A stretch of 33,513 nt of DNA from Methanobrevibacter sp. (lineage in GTDB: Archaea > Methanobacteriota > Methanobacteria > Methanobacteriales > Methanobacteriaceae): contig JAITXE010000019.1 in NCBI GenBank assembly GCA_031284925.1, positions 1 through 33,513 on the forward strand, in the 5' to 3' direction. The position numbers and the translations under genes were made by a program. Shown here piece by piece: positions 1,893 to 23,745 of this stretch. The notes under the pieces were generated by a model. The model saw only the letters and a program-made list of their open reading frames with translations, was not told where the DNA came from and did not search any database. The first letter of the stretch is position 1. Each line of letters begins with the position of its first letter.

Positions 1893-3146
1893 TCATTTGA
1901 TTATAGAATATGTATAATATTTTTTACCCCATACACATTTATCACCTAATTCTTTAAATTTATCTAAACCTTTTACAATACAATTCATACAATGTTCTAA
2001 TTCATTACAATCTTTACATTCTTCTTTATTTGGACTGTTAATTTCAAATATTTTAGTATTATTTAATTTAGAAAAAATATCATAAATTTCATTTTCAAAA
2101 ATGTTTCCCAATTTAAAATGATTATTCATATCTATTATACATCCTTTAACATTACCAGTTGGTGTAATAGTAATTGCATTATTACATAACTCACATTTTT
2201 TAGATCCAATTTGAACTTTTGGCTTTTTTATATAATTTTTATAAGATTTAATAATTTTATTTAATTCATTTAAAGATATATTATTAAAATTATTTTTTAA
2301 AGCTGCTCCAACTTTCATAATAGGTGAAAATGAAATATTTTTACATCCAATATTTTTTGTTAAGTTAATAATATCTTCAACTTCATTAATATTTTTCTCA
2401 TGAACAACCGTTGTTATTTCAATTATCACACCATTATTTGTTAATTTTTTAATTTTATTTAAAATTAAATCTAAATTATAATCACTGTTATTTATAAATT
2501 TACTATATGTTTCGTTATCTCCATTATTAATAGATATTTGAAGAATAAGTTTATCTTTATATTTACTAATTAAGTTAATTTCTTTATCACTTATTAAAGA
2601 TAAATTACTTAATAAAATAACATGTTCAAAATTTTGGAATACAAATTTTAAAATTTCATAACTATTAGGATGATTAAATATCTCCCCACCAGTTAATTGT
2701 AATCTTCTAGTTCCATATTTTTTCATTTTTTTTAAAAAATTAAAAAGTTTATCTTTATTTATGTTATCCTGTTTATCAAAATTTTCATAGTTATAACAAT
2801 GATCACATTTATAATTACAATTATAAGTCAATTCAATCTCAATTTGTTCTGGAATTTGAATATTTTTTAAACCAGAAATATCTATATATGAATCAGTTGG
2901 ATTATCATTGATAATTAAATAAGGATTATTTTCAATAAAATTTAAAATATCCTCCTTATCTTTGTCTTGATATGATTTTAAAATTCCATTAATTGTTGAT
3001 TTTCCATCACATTTTTTCATTATTTCTGTTTCATTTTTCCCAACTTCACAAAACTTTTGAGGATCATTTATATCACTTATCAAATTTTTTATAGATCCTT
3101 GATGTAATCTTACTCCTTTTTTAATCATTGGATATTTATTTATCAT
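1893..3146 (-). CDS. Radical SAM/SPASM peptide maturase with PqqD-like N-terminus
   Basis: This 417-residue protein is a radical SAM enzyme of the type that modifies ribosomally made peptides. Residues 1-85 form a small PqqD-like region (compare the CDGKSTINGIL stretch at 46-56), expected to bind the leader peptide. The radical SAM core starts at about 100, with the [4Fe-4S] motif CNYKCDHC (Cys110, 114, 117) and TGGE at 152-155 for SAM binding. A SPASM domain follows with Cys318, 321, 336, 377, 380, 386, 389 and 404, enough for two auxiliary clusters. The gene starts with ATG after AAAGGTGA and lies 55 bases downstream of a 36-codon peptide gene on the same strand, the arrangement of a RiPP precursor and its maturase. 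The protein is very rich in Asn, Ile and Lys. The exact chemistry (thioether, C-C crosslink or other) cannot be read from the sequence. Confidence 0.9.
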   Translation of the reverse strand: MINKYPMIKKGVRLHQGSIKNLISDINDPQKFCEVGKNETEIMKKCDGKSTINGILKSYQDKDKEDILNFIENNPYLIINDNPTDSYIDISGLKNIQIPEQIEIELTYNCNYKCDHCYNYENFDKQDNINKDKLFNFLKKMKKYGTRRLQLTGGEIFNHPNSYEILKFVFQNFEHVILLSNLSLISDKEINLISKYKDKLILQISINNGDNETYSKFINNSDYNLDLILNKIKKLTNNGVIIEITTVVHEKNINEVEDIINLTKNIGCKNISFSPIMKVGAALKNNFNNISLNELNKIIKSYKNYIKKPKVQIGSKKCELCNNAITITPTGNVKGCIIDMNNHFKLGNIFENEIYDIFSKLNNTKIFEINSPNKEECKDCNELEHCMNCIVKGLDKFKELGDKCVWGKKYYTYSIIK

Positions 3147-3201: not shown

Positions 3202-3312
3202 CTATTTACAATGATAACAACTATGCATATAAGCATAGTGTTTAAATTGTAGTTCATCTAATTCTTCATTATCTAATTCAATAGATTCTACGAATTTTAA
3301 ATTTAGATCCAT
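3202..3312 (-). CDS. Putative RiPP precursor peptide with C-terminal Cys-x-x-Cys
   Basis: This 36-codon gene encodes a likely substrate of the radical SAM enzyme just downstream. It has a perfect GGAGGA ribosome binding site eight bases before its ATG, stronger than that of most neighbours, and ends with TAG. Residues 1-22 form an acidic leader-like segment (ESIELDNEELDEL at 9-21) of the kind bound by PqqD-like domains. Residues 23-36 are a compositionally different tail rich in Tyr, His and Cys, ending YAYMHSCYHCK, with Cys32 and Cys35. No Gly-Gly cleavage site separates the two parts. Candidate modified residues are the two cysteines and the aromatic residues. The reading frame, the binding site and the position support a real gene. 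Its role as precursor is inference, since I recognise no characterised family. Confidence 0.75.
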   Translation of the reverse strand: MDLNLKFVESIELDNEELDELQFKHYAYMHSCYHCK

Positions 3313-3364
3313 AATGAATTCCTCCTTTTTTTAATAAAATTGTGTGCTGCTTGTCAAAATAAGA

Positions 3365-3379
3365 AAATTTTATTTAAAA
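3365..3379 (-). promoter_or_regulatory. Candidate TATA box for precursor peptide
   Basis: On the minus strand GTTTTAAATAAAAT lies about 60 bases before the peptide ATG. It matches an archaeal TATA element, and initiation about 25 bases downstream would give a leader of roughly 30-35 bases containing the GGAGGA site. It suggests that peptide and maturase have their own promoter instead of depending on ehb readthrough. Confidence 0.45.
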
Positions 3380-3544
3380 CAAGAGAGAATTTCTATTAAC
3401 ATTATTTTTCACATAATATTTTTTCATGAAATAATAAGTTGTAAAAATTCCAATACTTAATTTAAACTTCTTAGTATATAAGCTTTACCATACATATTTC
3501 ATAATTATAAGATTGGTCAAGCCATATTATTCATGATATAATTA

Positions 3545-3562
3545 ATTTATAACGTTATAAAT
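3545..3562. repeat. 18-bp perfect palindrome, possible operator
   Basis: ATTTATAACGTTATAAAT is its own reverse complement. It lies about 230 bases upstream of the precursor peptide in a stretch without genes. A dimeric regulator could bind it, but chance palindromes are common in A+T-rich DNA and no regulator gene is adjacent. Confidence 0.3.
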
Positions 3563-3789
3563 CAAATAAAACATGATGAATGCACTGTGAAAGATTAATC
3601 ATTTGCTCTCTCTCTCTCTTTCTAATGACTAAATAGTATTTTAAATAGAATAATGGTTATTATAATTTGATTTTCATAATAGATTAAGAGAGCAATATAG
3701 TTTAAATACTACAAAATAACTAAAATAAAAGTATGAAAGACATAAGCAACTATTTTTTAAAAATTAGGTATGGGGAAGTTGAAGCATGA

Positions 3790-4023
3790 GGTGATAAATT
3801 AGCTGAAATAGGATCCCATTAATTAATTAGGAATTATTCAGACCCATAATCAAACCAATATATAATAATCAGAGCAAAAAATGTGGTAGACCCAATATTG
3901 ATGAAATATATCATGTTAAAAAATATTAATTCTGCAAGGCACGGTATGAGTTTATCACATCCTGAGCTTGAAAAACAAGTTAATGATCATGTTTCATTTC
4001 TTAAGTTCTTATGGAGAAGTTAA
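3790..4023 (+). pseudogene. IS5-type transposase remnant (N-terminal part)
   Basis: One forward frame from 3790 reads DKLAEIGSH, a stop, LIRNYSDP, a stop at 3847, then NVVDPILMKYIMLKNI and MSLSHPELEKQVNDHVSFLK before a final stop at 4021. The block HPELEKQVNDHVSFLKFL closely resembles the conserved N-terminal region of IS5-family transposases (typically a GLSDPELE...DRISFRKFLGF-like stretch), preceded in the intact protein by a DPILMxKxLxLQ-like segment, which is also discernible. The catalytic DDE part is missing. Two in-frame stops and the abrupt end inside the 3' end of the ABC transporter gene show a dead fragment. No terminal inverted repeats could be assigned. Confidence 0.6.
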
Positions 4024-5643
4024 ATTTAAATTAATTATATTAGAATTATCCTTAATTTGAGATGAATCATGAGTAATGATAATAATTGTTTTCTCTTGTT
4101 TAATTTCATCAATCACATTATTAATAACAATTTTTGTTTCCTCATCAATAAAATTAGTGGCTTCATCTAATAATAAAATAGGACTGTCTTTTATTAAAGC
4201 ACGAGCTAAAGATATTTTTTGTCCCTGACCACTTGATATAAATTGTCCTGATTCACCAATATCATAATTAAAACCATCTTTTTTATTACGGATAAATTCA
4301 TCTAATTTTACTAACTTACAAATATTTTCAACATCCTTTTTGTTCGCACCAAAATTACCCATGATAATATTCTCATATATGCTTCCTTTAAATAAATAAG
4401 GATAAGGAAAAACAATACTTATCTCTTTAAGTAAATTTTTAGATGATACATACTTTATATTTTGATTATCAATAAATATATTGCCTTTATTTAAAGGATA
4501 TAATCCACAAATTAAGTTTATTATTGTGGATTTACCTGTCCCATTTTCACCAAGGATATAATTCAAACCTCTCTTAAAACAAGCATTAAAATCAACCAAC
4601 AGCTCTTTTTTATCATAAGCAAAACAAACATTCTCCAGTTTTATTTCACCATCAGTAATCTCTAATTTCTCTTGATTATTATCATCACCCACATTAAATC
4701 TTTCTAATTCATTTATTCTATTAATAGCAGGAATACTTGATTTATAATCACTCCATAGCATGGATAGTTGGGATATAGGTTGAAAAAATAATGCGATATA
4801 TGAAAAAAATGCTGAGAAAGTACCGATACTCATTTCATTATTAATAACCATCCTACCACCAAAAACAATAAATGAAATATTCATTAAACAATAAAATAGA
4901 TAATTACTTGATTGATTCAAACTCTTAAACTTATTATGTTTAATATCTAAATCACAATATTCTCTATTAGTTTGTTTAAATTTATTATTAGCCCATTCTT
5001 TTAAATTAAAAATCTTCAACACTAAAAATTTAGATAAAAACTCATTCAAAATAGAACCAATCAAACCATTAATCCATGATACTTTTGTCTGATAAAATTC
5101 TACTTTATTTCCTAATTCAAAATTAAAATACAAAAATATTAAAGCAGGAGAAACAATGATAATAGTCAAAAAAGGAGCAATAGATAACATTATTCCAATT
5201 GGAATAATGAAAGTTAGTAAATTCATAAATAAACGATCTATAGTTTGTGAAACTAAAATAGATGCAATAGGAACATTATTCATGACTCTACTCATCAAAT
5301 CTCCAACATCTCTCTGTTCATAATCAGAAACAGAACTACTTAAAATATTATCCAATAAATTAATAGAAACATCATTATATACATGATTCTGTAACTTATT
5401 AATAAAAACACTGTTAACATAATCAGAAACAGCAGATACTAAAAATAGAATTACTAAAATAATTATAGTTAAATTTATTAACTGAAAATTTTTATTAATA
5501 AGAATATCATCAATAATAACTCTTAGAATTAAAGGATTAACAAATTCAAATGTAAATGAGAATATAGCTGTTACGAAAATAATTAAAAATAATTTTTTAT
5601 GATTTTTAAGTGATTTCTTAAAAAAATTGGTAACTATACTCAC
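4009..5643 (-). CDS. ABC exporter, fused membrane and ATPase domains
   Basis: A half-transporter of about 544 residues, likely acting as a homodimer to export the modified peptide (inference from position). Numbered from an upstream ATG at 5661, membrane helices fall at about 23-50, 61-85, 140-182 and 255-300. The nucleotide-binding domain follows: Walker A GENGTGKST (371-379), signature ISSGQ (475-479), Walker B ILLLDE (495-500) and His531 of the H-loop. The usual Q-loop glutamine is replaced: SIVFPYPYLF stands where xVPQxPxLF is expected. No N-terminal C39 peptidase domain exists, so leader removal would need another protease. I prefer the GTG at 5643, because GGAGG lies ten bases before it and would otherwise be inside the coding region; ATG 5661 has no binding site. 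The 3' end overlaps a transposase remnant on the other strand. Confidence 0.85.
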   Translation of the reverse strand: MSIVTNFFKKSLKNHKKLFLIIFVTAIFSFTFEFVNPLILRVIIDDILINKNFQLINLTIIILVILFLVSAVSDYVNSVFINKLQNHVYNDVSINLLDNILSSSVSDYEQRDVGDLMSRVMNNVPIASILVSQTIDRLFMNLLTFIIPIGIMLSIAPFLTIIIVSPALIFLYFNFELGNKVEFYQTKVSWINGLIGSILNEFLSKFLVLKIFNLKEWANNKFKQTNREYCDLDIKHNKFKSLNQSSNYLFYCLMNISFIVFGGRMVINNEMSIGTFSAFFSYIALFFQPISQLSMLWSDYKSSIPAINRINELERFNVGDDNNQEKLEITDGEIKLENVCFAYDKKELLVDFNACFKRGLNYILGENGTGKSTIINLICGLYPLNKGNIFIDNQNIKYVSSKNLLKEISIVFPYPYLFKGSIYENIIMGNFGANKKDVENICKLVKLDEFIRNKKDGFNYDIGESGQFISSGQGQKISLARALIKDSPILLLDEATNFIDEETKIVINNVIDEIKQEKTIIIITHDSSQIKDNSNIINLNLTSP

Positions 5644-5702
5644 TTTTATACATCCTCCCATAAATAAATCTTAAATTAATTTGTTAATATAACCTTTAAT
5701 TT

Positions 5703-5807
5703 TTATATTATTGCCCAGCTACATTTATCACCAATGCTAAAATATTTTGCAAGACCTTGCATTAAACAGTACCTACAATCTTTTAAATATTCACAATCTC
5801 CATATAA
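5703..5807 (-). pseudogene. C-terminal remnant of a second radical SAM/SPASM maturase
   Basis: On the minus strand, a 34-codon frame closed by stops on both sides (TAA at 5808-5810 upstream, TAA ending at 5703) contains cysteines spaced C-x5-C-x2-C-x14-C and ends IGDKCSWAII. The intact maturase at 1893-3146 has exactly the same spacing at Cys380, 386, 389 and 404, with LGDKCVW at the end. Intervening residues also agree, for example GL.K before the GDKC block. There is no start codon. This is the last part of a SPASM domain from a second, related enzyme whose remaining sequence is gone. It lies between ehbO and the ABC exporter, implying that the exporter once followed its own maturase gene. 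Confidence 0.8.
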
Positions 5808-5839
5808 TTAAGATAAATTTTTTTTATTATAATTATTAA

Positions 5840-6853
5840 TTAATATAATAAACTTAATGCAATAGCTAATACTCCAAGTAAGGATGTTCCAATTACAGTT
5901 GGATAAAACTGCTTATTAGTAAATATTGGTGAAAATGCACTTAATATGCCCATAATTAGGGGGAATATAAAAGCTATAGCTATATTTATTAGTATTGTAT
6001 ATGATATGATATTTGGTGGGAGACCCATAAATAAAACTGAAAATATCATACTCATAGTAAATATTAAGAATCCTCGAGTTAAAAATATAACTGCCCTATA
6101 TTTAGATGCATATTCCATGTATGGTCCTTCGATGACATCTGCTTTAGTTTTTAATATTGCAAAGGGGTATTCATTCATTATAATCATATAACCTATGAAA
6201 AAAACTATAAATCCTAAAATTCCAGCTGCTGAAAATAAGATAGGCCCATGAATTGCTTGATATGCTACAATGTCTTTAAGATACACACTTCCCACAACTG
6301 ATACTGGTACAAATAAAGAGAGGTAAAGTGGAAAAGATCCAAAAGCTATTAATCTAAATGCTCTTTTTGAACTAATATCTTCAATAAATGATCTTTGACT
6401 ATCTAAATGAAGTCCACCTTTTACTAAATCAGGGAAAGGCATTGAAAGAGACATGATTGATTTGGAAAGAGCACCCATTAAAACATAACAAATCTCCTCA
6501 ACTTTTAAAAATCCTATAATAGCTATTACACTTGCAAATACACCAAACACATAGTTTTGAGGTATTAAAAACAATAATATTAAAAATACTACAATAAAAC
6601 ATATTATGGGTAATGATTTATATAATTTTGGAACTGTGGAGTTTGGTTCTATATTTTCCTTAAAGAAAAACTTAATTGGTGCCATTAAGCCAAGACTTGT
6701 AAATGTTGGTCCAATTCTCTGCTGAATTCGTGCATGAACATACTTTCTCTCAAAACCAGGAATAATTGTTCCCACAATAAAAGCCACGATTATTGTAGCT
6801 ATTACAGCTAAAATTGAGTATAAACTTTCATAAGATATTATCATTGTCTTCAT
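5840..6853 (-). CDS. ehbO: Energy-converting hydrogenase B subunit O (NuoH-like)
   Basis: This 337-residue integral membrane protein is the NuoH/HycD-like subunit that links the hydrogenase module to the ion-pumping arm. Family traits seen: an N-terminal helix then [18 protein letters not shown] at about 33-50, the conserved loop of this family, and [10 protein letters not shown] with E-rich flanks near 140. About eight hydrophobic helices are apparent. It follows ehbN with the stop and start only a few bases apart. ATG 6853 lies very close to AGGA; ATG 6844 (Met4) has a better eight-base spacing and could be the true start. It is the last gene of the ehbA-O run; in relatives ehbP would come next, but here a RiPP locus intervenes. 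Confidence 0.93.
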
Positions 6854-23520: not shown

Positions 23521-23745
23521 GACACTGTAAATTTAGCATGGTTTTTTGAATTTGAAAAATTGCAAATAAGATTACCTTAAGAGTCTACATATAACAGTTA
23601 ATTTATATGTCAAAAAGGATATTTTTTTAGAATTGTTGCAGAATTTTAATATAGAAAATTTAATATATTATGAAAAACAAATTAATTATATTATATATTA
23701 AAAATTTTAGTTTTTTTTTATAATATATTTCATGCTAAATTATTA
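23521..23745. mobile_element. Second, degraded copy of the MITE-like element
   Basis: The left end GACACTGTAAATTTAGCATG matches the terminal repeat of the 1719-1870 element, and the next 60 bases resemble its interior read in the opposite orientation (GAATTTGAAAAATT, then ATTACCTTAAGAG against ATTACATTAAGAG). A weak right end may be CATGCTAAATT at 23731-23741. The right half is poorly conserved and the boundary uncertain. It lies upstream of the divergent aconitase-family and aIF2-beta genes. Confidence 0.5.

Follow-up and report, generated by a model that had tools for sequence, protein, structure and literature searches.

The 33.5 kb stretch of methanogen DNA analysed here (the window) holds a 36-codon open reading frame next to a gene for a radical SAM protein, which raises the question of whether the small peptide is the substrate of that enzyme and what the enzyme would make of it. 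The original prediction read the region as an unrecognised radical-SAM RiPP pathway. Strong support for the pathway comes from the position of the small gene, its ribosome binding site, the fold of the maturase and the presence throughout the genus of loci joining a maturase to a Cys peptide, and we hold it very probable that this is a real archaeal radical-SAM RiPP locus. The system does not stand alone, however: it belongs, as a divergent copy, to an AlbA/SkfB-like family; and the range first given to it, 3202–5643, though its content was accurately described, left out the maturase (1893–3146).

The peptide gene and its maturase

The features of the core locus are as follows.

3202–3312, minus strand: candidate precursor of 36 residues, MDLNLKFVESIELDNEELDELQFKHYAYMHSCYHCK, an acidic leader-like half followed by the tail FKHYAYMHSCYHCK
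3320–3325, minus strand: Shine-Dalgarno sequence GGAGGA of the peptide gene, 7 nt before the ATG
1893–3146, minus strand: radical SAM/SPASM peptide maturase of 417 residues with an N-terminal RRE (PqqD-like) domain, by Pfam and fold match
2796–2819, minus strand: radical SAM motif CNYKCDHC (Cys110, Cys114 and Cys117), invariant in the family
1935–2195, minus strand: SPASM region, with Cys318, 336, 377, 380, 386, 389 and 404 invariant in the family and Cys321 private to the window copy

The short gene with an excellent GGAGGA site, an acidic leader-like half and a Tyr/His/Cys tail is thus confirmed by the reading frame and by a ribosome binding site 7 bases before its start codon. The tail carries three His and two Cys, the latter at positions 32 and 35 of 36, and the codon-position G+C of the frame (0.44/0.14/0.11) resembles that of the neighbouring genes and looks coding. 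When both strands were scanned for frames of 18–62 residues with a strong Shine-Dalgarno sequence and at least two Cys, this was the only one in the 33.5 kb. The five other genomes of the genus hold no ortholog of the peptide, a genus-wide peptide search matching only the peptide itself, and we count this against the explanation preferred below. A sigma-70 promoter scan returned chance numbers only, its bacterial model being uninformative for an archaeon. Within the 3' end of the peptide gene, at 3220–3239, there is a hairpin (ACTATGC...GCATAGT), followed by a T-rich stretch, that might restrict how much transcription reaches the maturase gene.

The radical SAM protein begins 55 bp downstream on the same strand, as predicted, and its radical SAM and SPASM domains both exceed the Pfam cut-offs. 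The CX3CX2C motif and seven SPASM cysteines, invariant family-wide, are all intact; the eight-cysteine SPASM region of the original prediction is present as eight C-terminal Cys, the eighth, C321, being peculiar to this copy. Pfam finds no PqqD match in the sequence of the enzyme; the PqqD-like N-terminus is backed instead by the AlphaFold2 model (pLDDT 85, pTM 0.86), which matches SkfB best (E 1.7e-22 over 388 columns) and then SuiB and CteB, with the N-terminal recognition domain included. All three are RiPP maturases with such a domain. SkfB also comes first among solved structures when the family profile is searched against the PDB (4.4e-39). Among NCBIfam models, AlbA, the subtilosin maturase, is the top named match of the window maturase at 131 bits, far from the equivalog cut-off of 850 bits (NF012164), and all 20 family members tested match AlbA with the lowest E-value of any NCBIfam family. 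Mycofactocin, PqqE, SuiB and EpeE enzymes are also among the matches, those to the mycofactocin/PQQ-type models TIGR03962 and TIGR02109 staying under their cut-offs (60 vs 265 bits and 66 vs 381 bits). A precursor gene next to the maturase, an RRE domain and the CX3CX2C and SPASM cysteines, by which radical SAM/SPASM RiPP systems are recognised, all occur here.

A genus-wide family of maturases and Cys peptides

Among 139 genomes from the taxonomic family and 152 from the phylum Methanobacteriota, true relatives of the maturase turned up only in the genus of the window, in all six of its genomes, and in a single genome (G138) from another genus. The copies per genome of the genus range from one (G004) to about 12 (G005), fragments included. 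A genome contig search with the single maturase protein gave only a weak Caldisericum match, its patterns being too specific. At 30 of 37 maturase loci a Cys peptide preceded by a ribosome binding site lies nearby on the same strand, and at the other seven the contig always breaks off no more than 900 bp upstream. Under a strict rule (strong ribosome binding site, at least two Cys) 21 of the 37 units have a peptide, against 0.25 expected in dinucleotide shuffles; the frames that pass this rule around the 37 maturases number 22 on the coding strand and none on the opposite strand, with a mean of 0.26 in dinucleotide shuffles.

In most precursors of the family a short leader (e.g. MNPxxE) is followed by three to seven Cys, spaced three residues apart and starting near residue 12, and then by a hydrophobic tail, mostly of 16–28 residues. 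This ladder (12, 15, 18, 21, 24, and up to seven Cys) resembles thurincin H, in which Cys4, 7, 10 and 13 are bonded to residues 28, 25, 22 and 19 (PMC8172795), and about 15 paralogous precursors have donor Cys in the N-terminal part and a C-terminal acceptor arm of similar length. By analogy, these paralogues would be archaeal nested-hairpin sactipeptides. The genome of the window (G000) encodes two of them itself, at L067 (on contig C18) and L068 (C16). Thurincin-H-like precursors stand beside AlbA-like maturases at L067, L068, L071, L072, L076, L077, L079, L084, L086, L094, L096, L097, L099 and L101. At L096:3472–3819 (minus strand) two tandem ladder precursors of 58 and 49 residues, with seven Cys each, lie upstream of one maturase. 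Ten paralogous peptides run against Pfam matched no family, and NCBIfam gave weak matches below the cut-offs.

A His-rich two-Cys tail and its likely chemistry

The Cys ladder is missing from the window peptide, and the position of its Cys, at 32 and 35 of 36, rules out a nested-hairpin sactipeptide. Three other loci (L069, in the same genome, L082 and L095) have peptides of its kind: like the window peptide, each has two Cys and no more, three His and a hydrophilic tail, and the final Cys lies within one or two residues of the C-terminus. The tails are HYAYMHSCYHCK in the window, NCHATHYHCYG at L069, MHCHAGHNGCW at L082 and RRCHTTNNHCW at L095, the Cys being spaced C-x6-C in the latter three and C-x2-C in the window. 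The peptide gene lies 57 bp before the maturase at L082 and 50 bp after it at L095. The maturases of these three loci form a supported clade with that of L093 (95/98), where the 490 bp before the contig end hold no peptide. Placement of the window maturase with this clade is compatible with the data (p-AU 0.27), which do not establish it; grouping the window maturase with that of L069 only is weakly disfavoured (p-AU 0.088). The leaders of the window and L069 peptides are not significantly similar (p 0.08), and the window peptide aligned weakly to L096a and L079 (p 0.0015–0.008 before correction for 25 comparisons), matches that were not used.

Since one residue follows the last Cys of the window peptide, the acceptors would have to lie N-terminal to the Cys or between them. 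Among known systems, subtilosin A of Bacillus subtilis resembles the family in its RRE, radical SAM and SPASM maturase, AlbA, which is the top NCBIfam match of every member tested, in the very short leaders of its precursors and in the order of most paralogous precursors, with Cys first and the hydrophobic tail after (e.g. NKIGCKICALCTFCIICAGPAWGAGFSGLVGLW at L072); it differs in that the AlbA score is far under the equivalog cut-off, that the present systems are archaeal, that the island described below has no protease gene, and that in the window peptide the Cys stand at the C-terminal end, with no hydrophobic arm to act as acceptor. SkfB is the nearest solved structure by profile and by fold, but in sporulation killing factor Cys4 of SkfA is bonded to the downstream Met12 (PMC8172795) and the window peptide has no residue arm after its Cys. 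The NxxcA ranthipeptide, with a Cys23-Asn20 bond and hence an acceptor N-terminal to the donor Cys (PMC8326336), shows the topology that the window tail would need; the NxxC motif, however, is absent from that tail (MHSC, CYHC) and occurs only at L095. Nor does the window peptide, with its two Cys, have the six Cys in forty-five residues of SCIFF/ranthipeptides.

By family resemblance, a thioether appears the single most likely chemistry, on an atypical substrate with two C-terminal Cys; we lean towards it with some reserve, as the AlbA match that suggests it reaches 131 of 850 bits. Rather unlikely, in our estimate, is that the peptide is a real substrate modified in another way, by an aromatic or His/Tyr C-C/C-N crosslink (e.g. 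within the H-S-C or Y-H-C triplets), by epimerisation or by a cofactor-type C-terminal change like that of mycofactocin or PQQ. A Tyr/His-rich tail at the extreme C-terminus would suit such a reaction, the geometry differs from that of nested-hairpin sactipeptides, and enzymes of the mycofactocin, PqqE, SuiB and EpeE kinds match the maturase as well. However, the number of Cys is two in each of the four peptides of the class and nearly every peptide of the family contains Cys, AlbA and SkfB are the top-scoring matches, and an exporter is adjacent, unlike in cofactor pathways. A bolder reading, which we think less likely than not, is that the His-rich two-Cys tails of the window, L069, L082 and L095 represent a new methanogen RiPP class, in which an enzyme of the AlbA lineage would close a small ring at the C-terminus, perhaps with a His taking part, and not a nested sactionine hairpin.

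The inserted island, the exporter and the state of the maturase

The core locus lies in an inserted block with these further features.

4009–5661, minus strand: fused ABC exporter, TMD and NBD without a C39 peptidase domain (Pfam), closest to the L100 exporter (53% identity over 502 residues)
5712–5804, minus strand: remnant of a second maturase, 31 residues, SPASM C-terminus only (YGDCEYLKDCRYCLMQGLAKYFSIGDKCSWA), stopping some 50 bp short of the ABC start
1642–1663: 22-nt direct repeat TTAAGATAAATTTTTTTTATTA, perfect copy, at one edge of the island
5808–5829: second perfect copy of the repeat, at the other edge
1722–1867: MITE-like palindromic element of about 150 bp, arms of 22 nt with 91% complementarity, 25 genomic matches

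The flanking genes, a NuoH-like membrane subunit (5840–6853) and an 85-residue protein (1368–1625), lie side by side in each of the five relative loci that show both (L103 and L105–L108) and about 4.2 kb apart in the window. No repeat in 200 shuffles was longer than 18 nt, against 22 nt here, and the maturase remnant is cut right at one copy of the 22-nt repeat. The simplest reading is that the block of about 4.1 kb arrived whole, as one insertion. The MITE-like repeat is also found at 23524–23593 of the window.

On the minus strand the remnant (5804–5712) is followed by the exporter (5661–4009), about 700 bp without a recognisable gene, the peptide (3312–3202) and the maturase (3146–1893). 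In the relatives, exporter genes usually follow the maturase, as a fused ABC protein at L068, L069, L074, L077, L087 and L100 and as an ATPase and a permease in many others. Because the exporter directly follows the remnant, whose closest relative is the L100 maturase (55% over 29 residues), and both are closest to the L100 pair, it was probably borrowed from a second unit whose maturase was lost, its native partner being the eroded maturase and not that of the window. The fused ABC exporter predicted upstream on the same strand is real, and the whole block was inserted together despite the probable borrowing of this gene.

The window maturase deviates at seven of 44 near-invariant columns (P156I, G182L, R281A and G319E among them, with GGEP changed to GGEI) and has the longest end branch of the maturase tree, an orphan with a best identity of 34%, and from these sequence features we suspect that it may be decaying or altered; decay and altered chemistry are both possible. 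In the same genome two maturases are frameshifted, on contigs C16 and C44 (L068:4880–6164 and L069:573–1896). Interrupted copies also occur at L072, L073, L080, L098 and L099.

These changes and the long branch, together with the eroded second maturase, the two frameshifted paralogues and the many pseudogenes of arthropod-gut relatives (PMC13135261), would fit an island that once made the peptide and now carries an inactive maturase, the small frame persisting by chance. We think this improbable, as the 417-codon maturase and 550-codon exporter frames are both open, the cluster-binding Cys are all intact and the ribosome binding site of the peptide is perfect. That the small frame is not the substrate at all, but a small metal-binding protein, as its His/Cys tail would allow, or a chance frame, as the missing ortholog might suggest, with the maturase acting on another peptide, is very unlikely given that it is the sole strong candidate in the window, correctly placed 55 bp before the maturase, that the island holds no other, and that L082 and L095 show similarly close placement.

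Proposed mechanism and significance

The best explanation, and in our view a probable one, is a radical-SAM RiPP module on the island, with a thioether ring at the C-terminal Cys and export by the ABC protein. In this scheme the acidic N-terminal half would be the part of the peptide bound by the RRE domain of the maturase. An acceptor residue in the tail would lose a hydrogen to the radical SAM cluster, and the thiol of Cys32 or Cys35 would, with help from the SPASM clusters, form a thioether to that residue, as happens with AlbA and SkfB. As the acceptors must lie upstream of or between the Cys, the product would be a small C-terminal ring, unlike the nested hairpin of the thurincin-like paralogues. 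The leader would be removed by a protease encoded outside the locus and the product exported by the ABC protein of the neighbouring unit with the decayed maturase, to serve most likely as a narrow-spectrum antagonist or a signal.

Sactipeptide and ranthipeptide clusters have been predicted in archaea by antiSMASH, with Methanobacteriota among the cluster-rich phyla (PMC12144867); like the present loci these are predicted radical-SAM RiPPs, but such earlier surveys listed them by class only. In the literature we searched, we found no description of this maturase family, its precursors or the two-Cys class. If our reading is true, one gut-type methanogen genus has an arsenal of AlbA-like RiPP systems that is restricted to its lineage, with highly diverse substrates and about 12 copies per genome at most, and the loci offer specific candidates for antimicrobial compounds or signals of archaea in animal guts. 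Related maturases with very different tails would also allow a direct test of what sets the crosslink position.

Other genes at the family loci

A single-module NRPS gene directly follows the maturase at L070:4517–6931, L083:6290–8758, L075:4496–6979, L088:4827–7316 and L090:4784–7045, with AMP-binding, PP-binding and thioesterase domains (Pfam run for L070). Peptides of 15–32 residues beginning MNPVMT or MNPIIT lie upstream at L070, L088, L090 and L017, and the combination is a possible RiPP-NRPS hybrid in archaea. Signal-peptidase-like genes near maturases (L073:4768–5241, L080:4989–5489, L092:7547–8047, L081:3303–3617 and L097:3356–3736) are candidate leader proteases, the Pfam S26 score at L092 being slightly below the cut-off. 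No formate dehydrogenase alpha subunit scored above the cut-off in the six genomes of the genus, most of which are incomplete assemblies. Termite-associated Methanovirga was described as lacking FdhAB (PMC13135261), and the missing FdhA, the low G+C and the pseudogenes of the genus genomes fit with it. In five genomes a Cas4-like nuclease gene lies just upstream of a TGTIGY-type peptide gene (L071:9023–9841, L076:1089–1907, L084:5672–6505, L086:2506–3336 and L094:4397–5230; Pfam run for L071).
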